20,436 nt of DNA from a virus: the IMG/VR virus record IMGVR_UViG_3300025325_000690, positions 1 to 20,436 of that record; one strand, 5' to 3'. Shown piece after piece: positions 1,258 to 18,955 of the stretch; the stretch's first letter is position 1; every line of letters starts with the position of its first letter. The notes beneath the pieces were generated by a model. It was given only the letters and a program-made list of their open reading frames with translations, was not told where the DNA came from and ran no database searches. The position numbers and the translations under genes are program-made.

Positions 1258-1719
1258 ATGAAGCATCTAACATCCCAGGAGAAAGACAGCCGATTAGGCG
1301 AGTGGCATGCGTTGCGCGCGGTCTCGGTTGACCATAGTGTGCCGGGGACGCCTGACCCAGAGATCTATGGCCTTGTTGATCGCTTAAACGAAATCGAGGG
1401 GGTGTGCGTAATTCAGTCCTGCTCAGGGCACAAGTCCTCCGAGCGTAAAGCGGAGGGCCGCACATTTAAGCGAGCGATACTTTGGCTGCGGGTTGAGGAA
1501 AGGCTACTTCGCGCGTTTGAGGGGCTCGCGTCGAGGCTCTACAGCTCTCCACTGGTGGATGAAGTCTGTGTCCGCTATGGGCGTGAGGTGGGACCGGTGA
1601 TTGAAGTGATCTTCGACGGAAAAGAATCAGGGAGACTGGGGCGTTCTCGGCGCCATCTTATTTCGTTCTTCAACGAACTGGCGGGGGCCGACGCCCCCGC
1701 CAGTCGTTACGGCACCTAG
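1258..1719 (+). CDS. Hypothetical protein with an IQSCSGH motif
   Basis: A 153-residue protein. Residues 35-62 (LVDRLNEIEGVCVIQSCSGH region) resemble a motif found in several uncharacterised phage and bacterial proteins, and loosely the SCSG strand of TYW3-like proteins. I do not assign a tRNA-modification function on that basis. The rest is alpha/beta with an Arg-rich C-terminus. ATG 1258 is the first start after an in-frame TAG and lacks a clear SD. Codon use is less GC-biased than in the flanking phage genes, so it may be a recently acquired cargo gene. Its last codons contain a perfect hairpin. Confidence 0.65.
   Translation: MKHLTSQEKDSRLGEWHALRAVSVDHSVPGTPDPEIYGLVDRLNEIEGVCVIQSCSGHKSSERKAEGRTFKRAILWLRVEERLLRAFEGLASRLYSSPLVDEVCVRYGREVGPVIEVIFDGKESGRLGRSRRHLISFFNELAGADAPASRYGT
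1678..1703 (+). terminator. Perfect 11-bp GC hairpin at the gene end
   Basis: CTGGCGGGGGC and GCCCCCGCCAG pair perfectly around a CGAC tetraloop. It lies inside the last codons of the SCSGH gene and ends 14 bases before its stop. There is no T-tract on either side, so it is a transcript-end or pause hairpin rather than a standard intrinsic terminator. It lies just beyond the point where a leftward reading frame converges on the same CTAG. Confidence 0.5.
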
Positions 1720-2020: not shown

Positions 2021-2353
2021 ATGAGAGGAAAGAATGGCGCGGTCCCGCTGACGGCTGAAGGCATTAGCTTGGCTATTGCCAGGGCTAACTCGCCGGAGGT
2101 GCGTCGAGAATATCTTGCCTCTTTGAAGCAAGAGGTCAAGTACTTCGAGCGCGAGTATAGCCTACCCTCGGTTGAGTTAAGGGCCGCATTGCAGAGCAAA
2201 CGTATCAAAGAGAGCCTTGGCGTAGTTAAATGGCTCTATGCTATCGAGGCACTCAGCCGGCTAGAGAATGCTAGGGAAACACGGGTGGAACAATCGAGAA
2301 AACTACCTGCACGTCCTGCTGCGGGTGTTAAGCGATCACCCGTTCGTCGTTAG
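2021..2353 (+). CDS. Putative antitoxin of a TumE-like TA pair
   Basis: A 110-residue protein from ATG 2021, which has a perfect AGGAGG 9 bases upstream; the TTG at 1982 has none. The core SPEVRREYLASLKQEVKYFE then YSLPSVELR and a final VVKWLYAIEALSRLE follow a pattern I know from small helical antitoxins encoded directly before TumE (DUF6516) toxins: an L/FE.xY helix, an S.E segment and a W-x4-L helix. It would bind and neutralise the downstream product. Its C-terminal ~29 codons overlap the toxin ORF in another frame by 86 bases and read as Arg/Pro-rich sequence, so the natural C-terminus may be lost or extended. Confidence 0.6.
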   Translation: MRGKNGAVPLTAEGISLAIARANSPEVRREYLASLKQEVKYFEREYSLPSVELRAALQSKRIKESLGVVKWLYAIEALSRLENARETRVEQSRKLPARPAAGVKRSPVRR

Positions 2354-2612
2354 TCACGACATTACAATCGAGCCTGAGCAGGCTGGGTTCGGCGAAATTC
2401 GCGGGCGTATAGAATGTCACGCGGGCGTCTATTTGGAAGTCCAGAAGCTGTATGAAACCCGCGAGCGCTCCGGCCGCATCGAGGCTCGAACCTGGAAGTA
2501 CTCTTATCATGCTGGATTCTCTGACGATGGTAGACGAATCCTCCGTTACGATAACGCGGATCAGCCGGGCGGGCTTTCTGTTATACTGATGGGCGCACAC
2601 GCTCGGGCGTGA
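2268..2612 (+). CDS. TumE-like toxin, C-terminus apparently truncated
   Basis: A 114-residue protein resembling the TumE toxin family: an N-terminal helix NYLHVLLRVL, a strand pair with GEIRGRIECHAG and VYLEVQKLYE, then the hallmark KYSYH followed by RRILRYDNA. In members I remember, the RYDNA strand leads to a His-rich P-H-H...F-P-H-x-K-H tail thought to be part of the active site. Here the frame runs instead into DQPGGLSVIL and stops, inside the first copy of a repeated promoter/terminator element. The toxin may therefore be inactive or altered. ATG 2268 has a weak SD and would be coupled to the antitoxin. Family is fairly sure; activity is not. Confidence 0.6.
   Translation: MLGKHGWNNRENYLHVLLRVLSDHPFVVSHDITIEPEQAGFGEIRGRIECHAGVYLEVQKLYETRERSGRIEARTWKYSYHAGFSDDGRRILRYDNADQPGGLSVILMGAHARA
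2574..2587 (+). promoter_or_regulatory. Extended -10 promoter candidate, copy 1
   Basis: The box CTTTCTGTTATACT contains an extended -10 (TGTTATACT at 2579-2587). It is the first of three near-identical boxes, lies inside the 3' end of the toxin ORF and would start a transcript near 2594. No good -35 is seen, as expected for an extended -10 promoter. Confidence 0.45.
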
Positions 2613-2656
2613 GCTTTCATGAGCAGCGAGTCCGTCCTTCGGGGCGGACTTTCTGT
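2594..2656 (+). ncRNA. Candidate ~60-nt small RNA
   Basis: Between promoter copy 1 and the terminator at 2629-2650 lies a compact transcript unit without a reading frame. It would contain the hairpin CACGC-TCGG-GCGTG (2598-2611), a weak GCT/AGC hairpin around 2613-2623, and the terminator stem. Promoter, two hairpins and an intrinsic terminator within about 80 bases is the form of a bacterial or phage small RNA. Role unknown; its place just after a TA pair makes a regulatory link possible but unproven. Confidence 0.35.
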
Positions 2657-2657
2657 T
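2629..2657 (+). terminator. Rho-independent terminator with UUCG loop
   Basis: AGTCCGTCC pairs over all 9 positions (one T-G) with GGGCGGACT around a TTCG tetraloop, followed by TTTCTGTT. This is a strong intrinsic terminator for the TA transcript and for the candidate small RNA. Its tail runs directly into the second extended -10 box, so termination and re-initiation are only a few bases apart. Confidence 0.75.
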
Positions 2658-2662
2658 ATAAT
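2649..2662 (+). promoter_or_regulatory. Extended -10 promoter candidate, copy 2
   Basis: CTTTCTGTTATAAT contains a consensus extended -10, TGTTATAAT (2654-2662). It would drive the structured region at 2668-2870 and possibly the tRNAs. It shares its first bases with the T-tract of the preceding terminator. Confidence 0.55.
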
Positions 2663-2667
2663 CGGGA

Positions 2668-2870
2668 GCGGCTACTCCCCCGCTGTGGCTCGCGCGGGTT
2701 TCATAGCGGGGATATCCGTTAAATGGCCGTCGAAGTCCTGGTCAGCGGTCAGCTCATGGTAGATTCGCAACCTGGCTCGCAAGAGCGCTGGGGCGGCAGC
2801 CCAGAGTGCGGAAACGGCAGGGCCATCAGCGAGCGCTCTTGATAGCGGAGTCCGTTATTGGGGGCGCTTT
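2668..2870 (+). ncRNA. Candidate ~200-nt structured RNA
   Basis: The stretch between promoter copies 2 and 3 has several well-paired elements: GGGAG/CTCCC near its start, CCGCTGTG (2689-2696) with CATAGCGG (2702-2709), a CTGGG/CCCAG hairpin near 2788-2803, and a perfect 10-bp long-range pair CAAGAGCGCT with AGCGCTCTTG (2832-2841) enclosing it. A 39-residue ORF from ATG 2724 exists but has no SD and a composition typical of structured RNA. It is not a tRNA I can fold, nor a tmRNA or RNase P RNA that I recognise. Confidence 0.35.
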
Positions 2871-2880
2871 CTGTTATCCT
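2867..2880 (+). promoter_or_regulatory. Extended -10 promoter candidate, copy 3 (tRNA cluster)
   Basis: CTTTCTGTTATCCT is the third copy of the box; its -10 (TATCCT) is the weakest match. It ends 12 bases before the first base of tRNA-Ser(CGA), the right distance for a tRNA transcript with a very short leader. Confidence 0.45.
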
Positions 2881-2892
2881 TGAGGGCGACAC

Positions 2893-2978
2893 GGAGAGAC
2901 CGCCATTGGCGTGGCATCCTCTCTCGAAAAGAGGTAAGCCGAAAGGCAGTGTGGGTTCAACTCCTACTCTCTCCGCCA
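2893..2978 (+). tRNA. tRNA-Ser (CGA anticodon)
   Basis: Acceptor GGAGAGA pairs with TCTCTCC before discriminator G and an encoded CCA. The anticodon arm is CCTCT-CTCGAAA-AGAGG, giving anticodon CGA for UCG codons. A long variable arm with GCC-GAAA-GGC marks a class II serine tRNA. The T-arm GTGGG-TTCAACT-CCTAC is intact apart from one G-T pair. It is the first of three tRNAs packed within 260 bases. Confidence 0.9.
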
Positions 2979-2981
2979 AAC

Positions 2982-3067
2982 GGAGCGGTGGCCGAGCGGT
3001 AAGGCAGCGGATTGCTAATCCGTACACGGTTCGCCGTGCGCAGGTTCGATTCCTGCCCGCTCCGCCA
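2982..3067 (+). tRNA. tRNA-Ser (GCT anticodon)
   Basis: Acceptor GGAGCGG pairs with CCGCTCC, followed by G and an encoded CCA. The anticodon arm GCGGA-TTGCTAA-TCCGT gives GCT, reading AGC/AGU. The long variable arm ACGG-TTCG-CCGT and the T-arm GCAGG-TTCGATT-CCTGC are canonical for serine. It begins 3 bases after the CCA of the previous tRNA, so both are probably processed from one precursor. Confidence 0.95.
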
Positions 3068-3071
3068 AAGT

Positions 3072-3148
3072 GGGCCTGTAGCCCAATGGCAGAGGCAACC
3101 GTCTCAAAAGCGGTGCAGGTGTAGGTTCGAATCCTACCAGGCCCACCA
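3072..3148 (+). tRNA. tRNA with CAA anticodon (Leu by code, short variable loop)
   Basis: Acceptor GGGCCTG pairs with CAGGCCC, discriminator A and encoded CCA. The T-arm GTAGG-TTCGAAT-CCTAC is perfect. The anticodon arm ACCGT-CTCAAAA-GCGGT puts CAA at 34-36, which reads UUG (Leu). Leucine tRNAs normally have a long variable arm; here the variable loop is only about 6 bases, so it is a class I tRNA body. Charging identity is therefore uncertain. Confidence 0.85.
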
Positions 3149-3486: not shown

Positions 3487-3726
3487 TTATGTCATTTGGT
3501 GCGAGCCGTCCCCGTCCTCAAGTAGCCGTATGAGGTCTGAGAGGGGCATGTCCAGGCCATCGGCGATCTTACGCAGCGTGTCCAGCGTGGGGTTTGGGCG
3601 CTCGCCTGTCCCCAATCGGTGGAGTGTCGCCTCGGGCATACCGAGCTTCCTAGCTGCTGCATTCACGCTCCCATAACGCTGGCGCAACCCCTCAACGATC
3701 TGAGGGATGCTCATAACACTGACCAT
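3487..3726 (-). CDS. XRE/Cro-CI family HTH repressor
   Basis: A 79-residue DNA-binding protein consisting almost only of an HTH_3 domain: VEGLRQRYGSVNAAARKLGM, the recognition turn PEATLHRLGTGER, then LDTLRKIADGLDMPLSDL (residues 11-67). There is no CI-type oligomerisation or cleavage domain. A start at Met 5 (3714) is possible. It is transcribed leftward, divergent from the early genes, and its upstream gap holds three TGAC-N4-GTCA sites and opposing promoters. That is the layout of a phage immunity switch, so it probably controls the rightward early operon and itself. Confidence 0.85.
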   Translation of the reverse strand: MVSVMSIPQIVEGLRQRYGSVNAAARKLGMPEATLHRLGTGERPNPTLDTLRKIADGLDMPLSDLIRLLEDGDGSHQMT

Positions 3727-3865: not shown

Positions 3866-4048
3866 ATGGCACGCACCCCGCTCTACGCCGAAGGTTCCAC
3901 GACCATGAATGTGGTGCTCCCGATCCCAGTCAAAGCGGGCCTTATGGCCGTCGCCAGGGTGGAGCGCCTGTCGCTCTCGGCAGTCGTCACCCGCGCCCTG
4001 GAGGACTGGCTGAAGGAGCACGCGGAGCCGCAGGCAGTGACCGCATGA
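3866..4048 (+). CDS. Ribbon-helix-helix (CopG/Arc-type) DNA-binding protein
   Basis: A 60-residue protein with the RHH pattern: a strand MNVVLPIPV, helix 1 KAGLMAVARVE, turn RLSLS and helix 2 AVVTRALEDWLKEH. Such proteins dimerise through the strand and bind operators as repressors or accessory factors. ATG 3866 follows TAGGAGAG at good spacing. It is the first gene right of the operator, so it is placed like a Cro-type early regulator. Its stop overlaps the next start (ATGA). Confidence 0.8.
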   Translation: MARTPLYAEGSTTMNVVLPIPVKAGLMAVARVERLSLSAVVTRALEDWLKEHAEPQAVTA

Positions 4049-4635
4049 CCCCCTTGGCCGAGCGGAATGCAAAGATCGTGCGCTGGGCGACGGAGAACCC
4101 GTGCTCGTCGCTGGAGCAGATCGGCCGCTACTACGGCATCTCACGAGAGCGGGTGCGGCAGGTGATCGCCAAAGCGGGGAAGCACAAGATTGCAGCGCAG
4201 ACGGCTCGGCCACCAAGGCGAATCTGTGAGATTTGCGGTGATGGCCTGACCGGAGATGCGCGGCACTATCATCAGCAATGCAAGCAGGCACGGGCCTGGG
4301 TGACCGTAATTTGTGATGGTTGCGGTATCAGTTTCCAGAAGCGAGCAAATCACGTCATCCGTGCCCAGCATGATTCGCGCTACACGGGACGCATCTTTTG
4401 TTCGGTTCCCTGCGCTCGACGGCACCCGTCCGAAGCGGCATTGGCCTATCTGCATTCATCGAAGCCGGGGGCACCTAGGTGGACGCATTGTAAGCGAGGC
4501 CATCCTCTGACCGAGGAGAACACATACACCTATCAACGGGGGCGTCAGTGCAAAACGTGCGCTAATGCCAGGAACCGCGTCCATTACGAGCAAGGGGAGT
4601 CGGCTCCCGCCACCCGTAAGCCGGCGCTCGCATGA
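4045..4635 (+). CDS. HTH plus zinc-finger DNA-binding protein
   Basis: A 196-residue protein. Residues 17-45 (SSLEQIGRYYGISRERVRQV) are a sigma-70 region 4-like helix-turn-helix. Two Cys clusters follow (CEICGDG near 61 and CDGCGISFQK near 90, with CSVPCARRHP), and a C-terminal CKRGHPL...CKTC motif typical of phage HNH-related zinc modules. I see no full HNH catalytic set. It looks like an early transcription regulator or a zinc-dependent DNA-binding accessory. ATGA overlaps on both sides place it in the early operon. Confidence 0.7.
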   Translation: MTPLAERNAKIVRWATENPCSSLEQIGRYYGISRERVRQVIAKAGKHKIAAQTARPPRRICEICGDGLTGDARHYHQQCKQARAWVTVICDGCGISFQKRANHVIRAQHDSRYTGRIFCSVPCARRHPSEAALAYLHSSKPGAPRWTHCKRGHPLTEENTYTYQRGRQCKTCANARNRVHYEQGESAPATRKPALA

Positions 4636-8670: not shown

Positions 8671-8700
8671 GCGCTGATCGGGCAGCGCTCCCGCCAAACG
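8671..8700 (+). repeat. Hairpin repeat copy 1, loop ATCGGG
   Basis: GCGCTG-ATCGGG-CAGCGC (8671-8688) is a perfect 6-bp hairpin, followed by TCCCGCCAAACG and the SD of the next gene. Its 18-mer is the exact reverse complement of the hairpin at 8901-8918, which is followed by the same 12 bases. Confidence 0.7.
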
Positions 8701-8714
8701 AAAGGGGATAGACG

Positions 8715-8969
8715 ATGACGATACCGACACCAACGCGAACGTGGGACGAGGACCGCGAGGCGCTGGGGCAAGCGACTGACCTGCTCGCCTTCGCCAATAG
8801 GTTCCTTCCCGCCGGTCGCGCCTGCCAGATAACGGGCACCACTATTGAACGATGTGGTGGCTGTCAGCCGTGCTGCGCCCAGTTCATCGAGGACTGGCTG
8901 GCGCTGCCCGATCAGCGCTCCCGCCAAACGGAAGGAGAACCCGTGACGAACCTGAGAGGGACTCGCTGA
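8715..8969 (+). CDS. Hypothetical protein with CGGCQPCC
   Basis: An 84-residue protein. ATG 8715 follows AAAGGGGA. WDEDREALGQATDLLAFANR is helical, and CQITGTTIERCGGCQPCCAQF could bind a metal or form disulfides. Not recognised. The second hairpin repeat lies in its 3' coding part, and the last ~10 residues come from sequence that looks like a second SD (GGAAGGAG) and a GTG start at 8942, so the gene end may have been altered by duplication of the hairpin unit. Confidence 0.55.
   Translation: MTIPTPTRTWDEDREALGQATDLLAFANRFLPAGRACQITGTTIERCGGCQPCCAQFIEDWLALPDQRSRQTEGEPVTNLRGTR
8901..8930 (+). repeat. Hairpin repeat copy 2, loop CCCGAT
   Basis: GCGCTG-CCCGAT-CAGCGC (8901-8918) has the same stem as copy 1 but the complementary loop, and is followed by the same TCCCGCCAAACG (8919-8930) and a purine-rich SD. 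It lies inside the coding region of the 8715 gene. Confidence 0.7.
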
Positions 8970-17595: not shown

Positions 17596-17618
17596 ACCGC
17601 CTTTCGGGGCGGTTTTTT
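17596..17618 (+). terminator. Rho-independent terminator with UUCG loop
   Basis: ACCGCCT-TTCG-GGGCGGT forms a 7-bp stem (one T-G) on a TTCG tetraloop, ending in six T. It is a textbook intrinsic terminator. It stops only 5 bases before the GTG of terL, so an RNA that starts after it would be nearly leaderless, and an RNA that reads through would carry the hairpin over the ribosome-binding region. Confidence 0.85.
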
Positions 17619-17623
17619 GATGG

Positions 17624-18955
17624 GTGGCGAATGTGGTAGCTGAAGTGGCGGCGTATCCGGCGAACGCGAAGGTGATCGAGGTGATGGCGGGGGCGCAGGC
17701 GGAGTTCGTGCGGAGTGAGGCGCGGTATCCGGGGTACTTTGCGGGGCGGCGTGGCGGGAAGACCTCGGCGTCGGTCATCAAGATGGTGCGCTACATGACG
17801 TCGTATCCAGGAGCGTACTTCATGTTCACCGTCCCGACCTTGGGGGACGTGGACCGGATTCTCCTTCCCAAGATGCGGGAGTTCTTCGGGGTGTTCGAGG
17901 GGGATATGTGGGGGTGGTTGGAGAAAAAGAGTCAGATCGTCTTCCCGAAGCACCGGGGGCCGAACGGGGAGGGTGGAGTGGTGTTCGTCAGGCCAGCGTC
18001 GGAACCGGACTCCATGCGCGGGCCGACTCTGGCAGCGGCCGCGATGGACGAGATCGGAACGGAGGACCAGCACGCCGCCTTCCAGATCCTGCAACCCGCG
18101 GTGTTCGGCGGACAGCCGGGCTTCCCCCACCAGATATGGGTCACGAGCACCCCTCGGGTGGAGCGCAAGTGGGTGAAGCAGAGGTGGGCGGACCACCTGA
18201 ACCCGCTGACCGGAGACCCGCTGCCCCCCGAGGACTACCCCATCTTCCGGGCGCGCACGGTGGACAACTACCACCTGGAGGCGGAGGCAATCCAGTCGCT
18301 TGTGAGCGAGTTCGGCAACAGCCGTGAGGCCCAGCAGGAGCTGGAGGGCGAGTTCATCGCCCTTGAGGGCACGGTGTTCGGGATGCTCGACCCGGAAGTC
18401 CACCTGCGTTACCCCCCGGAGGATACGGTGTTCACCCGGACGGTGTTCGGCTTCGACATCGGCGGCAGTGCCCCGACGGCGATCATCCAGTGGAAGCTGG
18501 ACCGGCAGTTCCGTAAGTGGGCCGTGGCCGAGTTCTATAAGCCCGACGCCGACGAATACGAATGGGTGAAGTGGCTCGCCGACCGGGGTGCGCTGCGGGT
18601 CTTCTGCGATCCCGCCATCAGTGACAGGACGCTCCTGTACTGGAGCCGCGTCCACGGGATCAGGTTCGTCCGGGCGCGGGACAAGACCCACGAGGGACGG
18701 CTGAACGTCTGGAAGACGGGCCTGTCTCACGAGACGCGCCCCCCGAGCATCTTCATCTCGCCGGATTGCCCTATGCTCTGGAACGAACTCCTTGAGCTTC
18801 GGCGGAAGAGGGTCGGGGACGAGGAATACTCCGAGGCGTGGGCGCGGAGCACGGCAGACCACGCCTACGACGCCGGAGCCTACGGCTTGCAGGAACTCCA
18901 GTTCCCAAAGACCGCGCTGCCCCAGCCGGCTCAACTTGTCGGAGCCGTGAGATGA
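17624..18955 (+). CDS. terL: Large terminase subunit
   Basis: A 443-residue packaging motor. Walker A GRRGGKTS (41-48), Walker B AAAAMDE (137-143) with catalytic Glu 143, and coupling motif TSTP (174-177) form the ATPase. The RNase H-like nuclease has Asp 278 in FGFDIGG, Asp 329 in VFCDP and Asp 412/416 in TADHAYDAG. Length is typical. GTG 17624 is chosen because it is the first start in frame; no SD is seen apart from G-runs in the terminator stem. It pumps DNA into the portal and cuts it. Confidence 0.95.
   Translation: MANVVAEVAAYPANAKVIEVMAGAQAEFVRSEARYPGYFAGRRGGKTSASVIKMVRYMTSYPGAYFMFTVPTLGDVDRILLPKMREFFGVFEGDMWGWLEKKSQIVFPKHRGPNGEGGVVFVRPASEPDSMRGPTLAAAAMDEIGTEDQHAAFQILQPAVFGGQPGFPHQIWVTSTPRVERKWVKQRWADHLNPLTGDPLPPEDYPIFRARTVDNYHLEAEAIQSLVSEFGNSREAQQELEGEFIALEGTVFGMLDPEVHLRYPPEDTVFTRTVFGFDIGGSAPTAIIQWKLDRQFRKWAVAEFYKPDADEYEWVKWLADRGALRVFCDPAISDRTLLYWSRVHGIRFVRARDKTHEGRLNVWKTGLSHETRPPSIFISPDCPMLWNELLELRRKRVGDEEYSEAWARSTADHAYDAGAYGLQELQFPKTALPQPAQLVGAVR

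Follow-up and report, generated by a model that had tools for sequence, protein, structure and literature searches.

Candidate tandem terminator-promoter cassettes upstream of the tRNA genes of a viral contig

The DNA analysed here is a viral contig of 20,436 bases, and the window is this entire virus record. It carries endolysin-like, replication-type, repressor-like and terminase genes (Table 1), and the region of interest, 2668-2870, sits immediately upstream of three tRNA genes at 2893-3148. The first of these, tRNA-Ser(CGA), is atypical: ARAGORN finds it, and in Rfam it appears as a sub-threshold tRNA-Sec (34.7 bits against a cut-off of 47). Near the tRNA genes, a 153-aa ORF at 1258-1719 (+ strand) shows a weak TYW3 N-terminal match (E 0.001, below cut-off), and the part resembling TYW3, a tRNA wybutosine methyltransferase, includes an SCSGH motif. 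A near-perfect G+C-rich hairpin (ACTGGCGGGGGC/GCCCCCGCCAGT, 1675-1706) lies at the end of this ORF; it is the most stable in the window and has no U tail. Two perfect inverted repeats were also observed, one of 16 bp (GACATCGCCCCGATAC, 691-706 and 768-783) within the small ORF 590-850 and one of 18 bp (GCGCTGATCGGGCAGCGC, 8671-8688 and 8901-8918). The highest terminator-like hairpin score in the window belongs to CCGCCTTTCGGGGCGG followed by TTTTTT (17597-17612, + strand), directly upstream of the terminase gene. In the TumE-like ORF at 2268-2612, the match is restricted to profile positions 9-47 of 81. Sequence from repeat copy 1 (GGLSVI...) seems to stand in place of the C-terminus, which suggests a truncated TumE-like gene fused to that copy.

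Table 1. Features around the region 2668-2870 and landmark genes of the window (positions in the window).
Feature	Position	Strand	Description
Endolysin-like gene	left end of window		
TumE-like ORF	2268-2612	+	Pfam TumE (PF20126), 28.5 bits, above cut-off
Repeat copy 1	2567-2595	+	GGGCGGGCTTTCTGTTATACTGATGGGCG; extended -10 TGTTATACT at 2579-2587
Putative short RNA 1	2594-2655	+	~60 nt, copy 1 to hairpin A; deduced from flanking signals; two hairpins
Hairpin A	2624-2655	+	CAGCGAGTCCGTCC-TTCG-GGGCGGACTTTCTG; U-rich tail TTTCTGTTAT; z -5.5; terminator score 7.2
Repeat copy 2	2642-2670	+	GGGCGGACTTTCTGTTATAATCGGGAGCG; extended -10 TGTTATAAT at 2654-2662
Putative short RNA 2	2668-2870	+	~200 nt, candidate promoter of copy 2 to hairpin B
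Hairpin in region	2678-2711	+	CCCCGCTGTGGCTCGCGCGGGTTTCATAGCGGGG; ~10-bp stem; not clearly beyond chance
10-bp perfect pair	2780-2789 with 2832-2841	+	CAAGAGCGCT/AGCGCTCTTG; excludes hairpin B
Hairpin B	2827-2873	+	18-bp stem 2831-2869 plus CAG/CTG clamp; z -6.0; terminator score 6.2
Repeat copy 3	2860-2888	+	GGGGGCGCTTTCTGTTATCCTTGAGGGCG; extended -10 TGTTATCCT at 2872-2880
tRNA-Ser(CGA)	2893-2978	+	encoded CCA
tRNA-Ser(GCT)	2982-3067	+	encoded CCA; Rfam tRNA match
tRNA-Leu(CAA)	3072-3148	+	encoded CCA; Rfam tRNA match
Repressor-like gene	3487-3726	-	
Replication-type genes	in window		RusA-like; DnaD/replication-initiation-like
Terminase	17624-18955		

Directly upstream of the three tRNA genes, an element of ~30-45 nt occurs in three copies (consensus CTTTCTGTTAT[AC][AC]TnnnGRGCG), recognizable as a 29-nt direct repeat that is 79% identical (n = 3; copies at 2567, 2642 and 2860). 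Its core, CTTTCTGTTAT, is confined to these copies within the window, even when two mismatches are allowed. Each copy combines an extended -10 box, that is, TGn with a TATAAT-like hexamer (TGTTATACT, TGTTATAAT and TGTTATCCT), with a GC-rich discriminator, and the conservation among the copies spans both the -10 and the discriminator (GRGCG). Since this is what a promoter would need, the conservation counts for reading the boxes as promoters. The initial annotation had placed the region right behind the best -10 box of the window and between two promoter boxes, and our analysis agrees with it: an exact TGTTATAAT occurs only once in the window, at the box of copy 2, and the box downstream of the region belongs to the same repeat, which in fact has a third member. 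Transcription from copy 2 is expected to start near 2668. Copy 3 is followed, after a gap of 5 nt, by tRNA-Ser, and its box, ~13 nt before this gene, is presumed from its sequence and placement to be the promoter of the tRNA operon; its -10 hexamer, TATCCT, is weak. Copy 1 overlaps the end of ORF 2268-2612 and has a weak hairpin only (z -1.3). A sigma-70 scan listed no -35 hexamer or promoter-like site at the three boxes. At extended -10 promoters, a -35 hexamer is helpful but not required.

In copies 2 and 3, a U-tailed hairpin (A and B, respectively) is fused to the repeat, and the tail continues directly into the extended -10 box. Hairpins A and B both start with CAGCGAG, end with CTTTCTG and carry the same tail, TTTCTGTTAT. 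Each has two features of an intrinsic terminator, a hairpin stable beyond chance and a U-rich tail directly 3' of the stem, with U tracts that are broken up by C and G. A d'Aubenton-Carafa-type terminator score, applied to both strands of the 20 kb, exceeds 0 for only three candidates, among them A and B. Shuffled strands gave a mean of 0.10 terminator hits of A/B strength per strand, and two on one strand in 0.7% of cases. Hairpin B reaches -26.3 kcal/mol as + strand RNA versus -11.8 kcal/mol on the other strand, because of its G-U pairs. The dyads could instead represent other motifs, such as a protein-binding repeat, repeated upstream of tRNA genes; a stable fold confined to the + strand, as seen for B, points to an RNA and not to a palindrome in the DNA. 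The first six pairs of A and B are identical, and the later pairs differ yet still pair. We did not count these differences as covariation proving the structure, since the arms of the two hairpins cannot be aligned as homologues.

The initial annotation read the region itself as a structured RNA of ~200 nt, possibly a new phage class. The pieces that it named exist: the 10-bp perfect pair is present, as are hairpins such as that at 2678-2711. The absence of a credible gene was also borne out, with no long ORF in the region, and so was the failure to assign it to a known RNA. No tRNA or tmRNA was found within 2668-2870, and the Rfam covariance-model search of the region gave no match at gathering score to a riboswitch, T-box, tmRNA, RNase P RNA or sRNA. 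At a permissive threshold (E up to 10), the matches were at chance level only, the best in the region being a eukaryotic snoRNA with E 0.41. The part of the claim that did not stand is an unusual overall structure. Compared with dinucleotide shuffles, 2668-2845 folds with a z of +0.28 and 2668-2855 with a z of -0.56. The z of -2.9 obtained for 2664-2870 (-2.91 in a separate run) arises because of the one 18-bp hairpin at the 3' end, 2831-2869, whose stem needs the last ~15 nt to be complete. Among 107 ordinary windows of 188 nt from the contig, 8 reach a z of -2.5 or lower. The 10-bp pair, moreover, is practically absent from the complete RNA (probability 2e-7 in the full-length fold), because the hairpin at 2831-2869 takes its 3' arm.

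A new RNA class with a function of its own would fit the likely promoter and terminator at the ends, the several hairpins and the lack of a long ORF. The body, however, folds like its shuffles, the pair that would define the class is missing from the full fold, the strongest structure is terminator-shaped (an 18-bp hairpin with a U-rich tail), and no homologues were found in phages, plasmids or IMG/VR patterns. We therefore regard a new class as very unlikely, while an untranslated transcript between promoter-like boxes upstream of the tRNAs is plausible and, as a non-coding RNA, likely. As for the other suggestion, a precursor that helps tRNA processing, nothing beyond position speaks for it, and the tRNAs appear to own the box in copy 3.

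The 10-bp pair and hairpin B are mutually exclusive, as the pairings of an attenuator would be, and bases 2832-2841 are common to both. In a terminator/antiterminator switch, the pair would form in the nascent RNA and delay or prevent B, and a factor, a ligand or the translation of a leader peptide would control read-through into the tRNAs. The folding of growing RNA is compatible with this: the pair has a probability of 0.5-0.97 when the 3' end lies at 2842-2860, and it dominates only in transcripts that stop short of about 2862; once the end reaches 2865, its probability is <0.01. When the upstream part was shuffled, the 5' arm of B had an exact 10-nt partner in 0.5% of the shuffles. On the other hand, the full RNA favours B (-92.6 versus -82.5 kcal/mol), and the arm holds a self-complementary AGCGCT, which makes chance pairing easier. 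The window has 8 separate sites with a perfect 10-bp pair within 60 nt (13 when overlapping 10-mers are counted, against 2.2 expected from shuffles), and Rfam gave no match to a known riboswitch, T-box or leader. Since the tRNAs seem to have a promoter downstream of B, any control by read-through would also be partial. Taking these points together, we consider the switch unlikely. Its fuller version, a self-contained attenuator in which the 10-bp antiterminator competes with B and tRNA supply is tuned by a signal sensed in the ~200-nt leader, inside a repeated terminator-promoter array making two small RNAs, seems to us highly improbable.

The transcript from copy 2 could also carry a small protein gene: a 39-codon ORF at 2723-2842 (MAVEVLVSGQLMVDSQPGSQERWGGSPECGNGRAISERS), in frame between its ATG and its TGA, takes up the body of the region. 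The codon score of this ORF, 0.02 per codon, falls among those of real genes and exceeds that of most wrong frames. It is nevertheless ambiguous: scores as low are found for 13% of true 38-codon pieces, and scores as high for 15% of wrong-frame pieces. A strong ribosome-binding site was not seen by eye, and searches of phages and NCBIfam gave no protein matches. It is thus quite unlikely that this ORF explains the region.

Another reading takes the region as an antisense RNA against the TumE-like gene, with the loop of the hairpin at 2678-2711 pairing with codons in ORF 2268-2612. Bases 2693-2705, partly in the apical loop, are complementary to 2451-2463 over 13 perfect bp (16 of 18), and the ORF does match Pfam TumE. 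However, 13-bp complements within 1 kb occur at four places in the window and at least one in 38% of shuffles, so the pairing was rejected as not beyond chance. The match covers only part of the TumE profile, and the C-terminus seems lost. Because the known partner of TumE is a protein antitoxin, TumA (PMC10584680), this too counts against an antisense RNA, which we judge extremely improbable.

Searches for relatives of the region yielded little. Blastn against phages and plasmids returned tRNA or chance hits only. Exact patterns in IMG/VR, either the promoter repeat or the hairpin frame CAGCGAG-N-CTTTCTGTTAT, gave unrelated sequences without a nearby tRNA, or none, and the matches were mostly one recurring marine-type sequence. 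Among the neighbouring proteins, the terminase led to relatives only ~25% identical, the protein at 4045-4635 to a short shared segment only, and the TumE-like ORF and a 477-aa ORF to none. A literature search on small RNAs and terminators in phage tRNA clusters found nothing usable. Since no homologue was found in phages, plasmids, IMG/VR patterns or Rfam, the promoter and terminator assignments are without support from conservation between genomes, and this limits all claims on the region, including the model proposed below.

Based on these findings, we propose that tandem terminator/promoter cassettes probably insulate and drive the tRNA operon and, in doing so, make two short leader RNAs of ~60 and ~200 nt. 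Hairpins A and B would halt polymerases arriving from the lysis and accessory genes, and each box would start new ones. In copies 2 and 3, the candidate terminator hairpin with its tail TTTCTGTTAT would lead straight into the candidate promoter (TGTTATAAT or TGTTATCCT). Copy 1 would be promoter-like with a weak hairpin only, so that the full pattern would be present in 2 of the 3 copies. The products would be the ~60-nt RNA between copies 1 and 2, the ~200-nt RNA between copies 2 and 3, and a tRNA precursor, for which the last copy would serve and whose leader would measure ~5-7 nt. The use of the boxes as promoters, termination at the hairpins and insulation of the tRNA operon as the purpose of the arrangement are what we infer from these signals. 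The ~200-nt RNA is most likely chiefly a spacer or leader between two cassettes, and the region as a whole is most likely a regulatory DNA/RNA signal of an ordinary kind whose tandem layout is unusual. If this model is correct, the arrangement would be a compact phage means of separating tRNA genes from upstream transcription, in which a single repeated piece of ~45 bp both halts the incoming polymerase and launches another. It would also serve as a caution that strong signal hairpins at the flanks can make an unstructured body resemble a structured RNA.

The proposed cassettes recall known systems in part. Like intrinsic (Rho-independent) terminators, A and B combine a G+C-rich hairpin (8-18 bp) with a T-rich stretch that comes after it on the same strand, and they score above threshold; here, however, the T stretch is interrupted (TTTCTGTTAT) and doubles as the upstream part of the -10 box. 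Extended -10 (TGnTATAAT) sigma-70-type promoters of stable RNA operons have a GC-rich discriminator. The boxes TGTTATAAT, TGTTATACT and TGTTATCCT resemble them, being GC-rich up to the expected start, with the third copy just ahead of a tRNA, but they have no recognizable -35. Bacteriophage T4 provides a further comparison: its RNAs C and D are stable RNAs of unknown function in a phage tRNA cluster. Compared by position only, the putative ~200-nt RNA is likewise a non-tRNA transcript beside phage tRNA genes, whereas it differs from RNAs C and D in lying between separate terminator and promoter signals.
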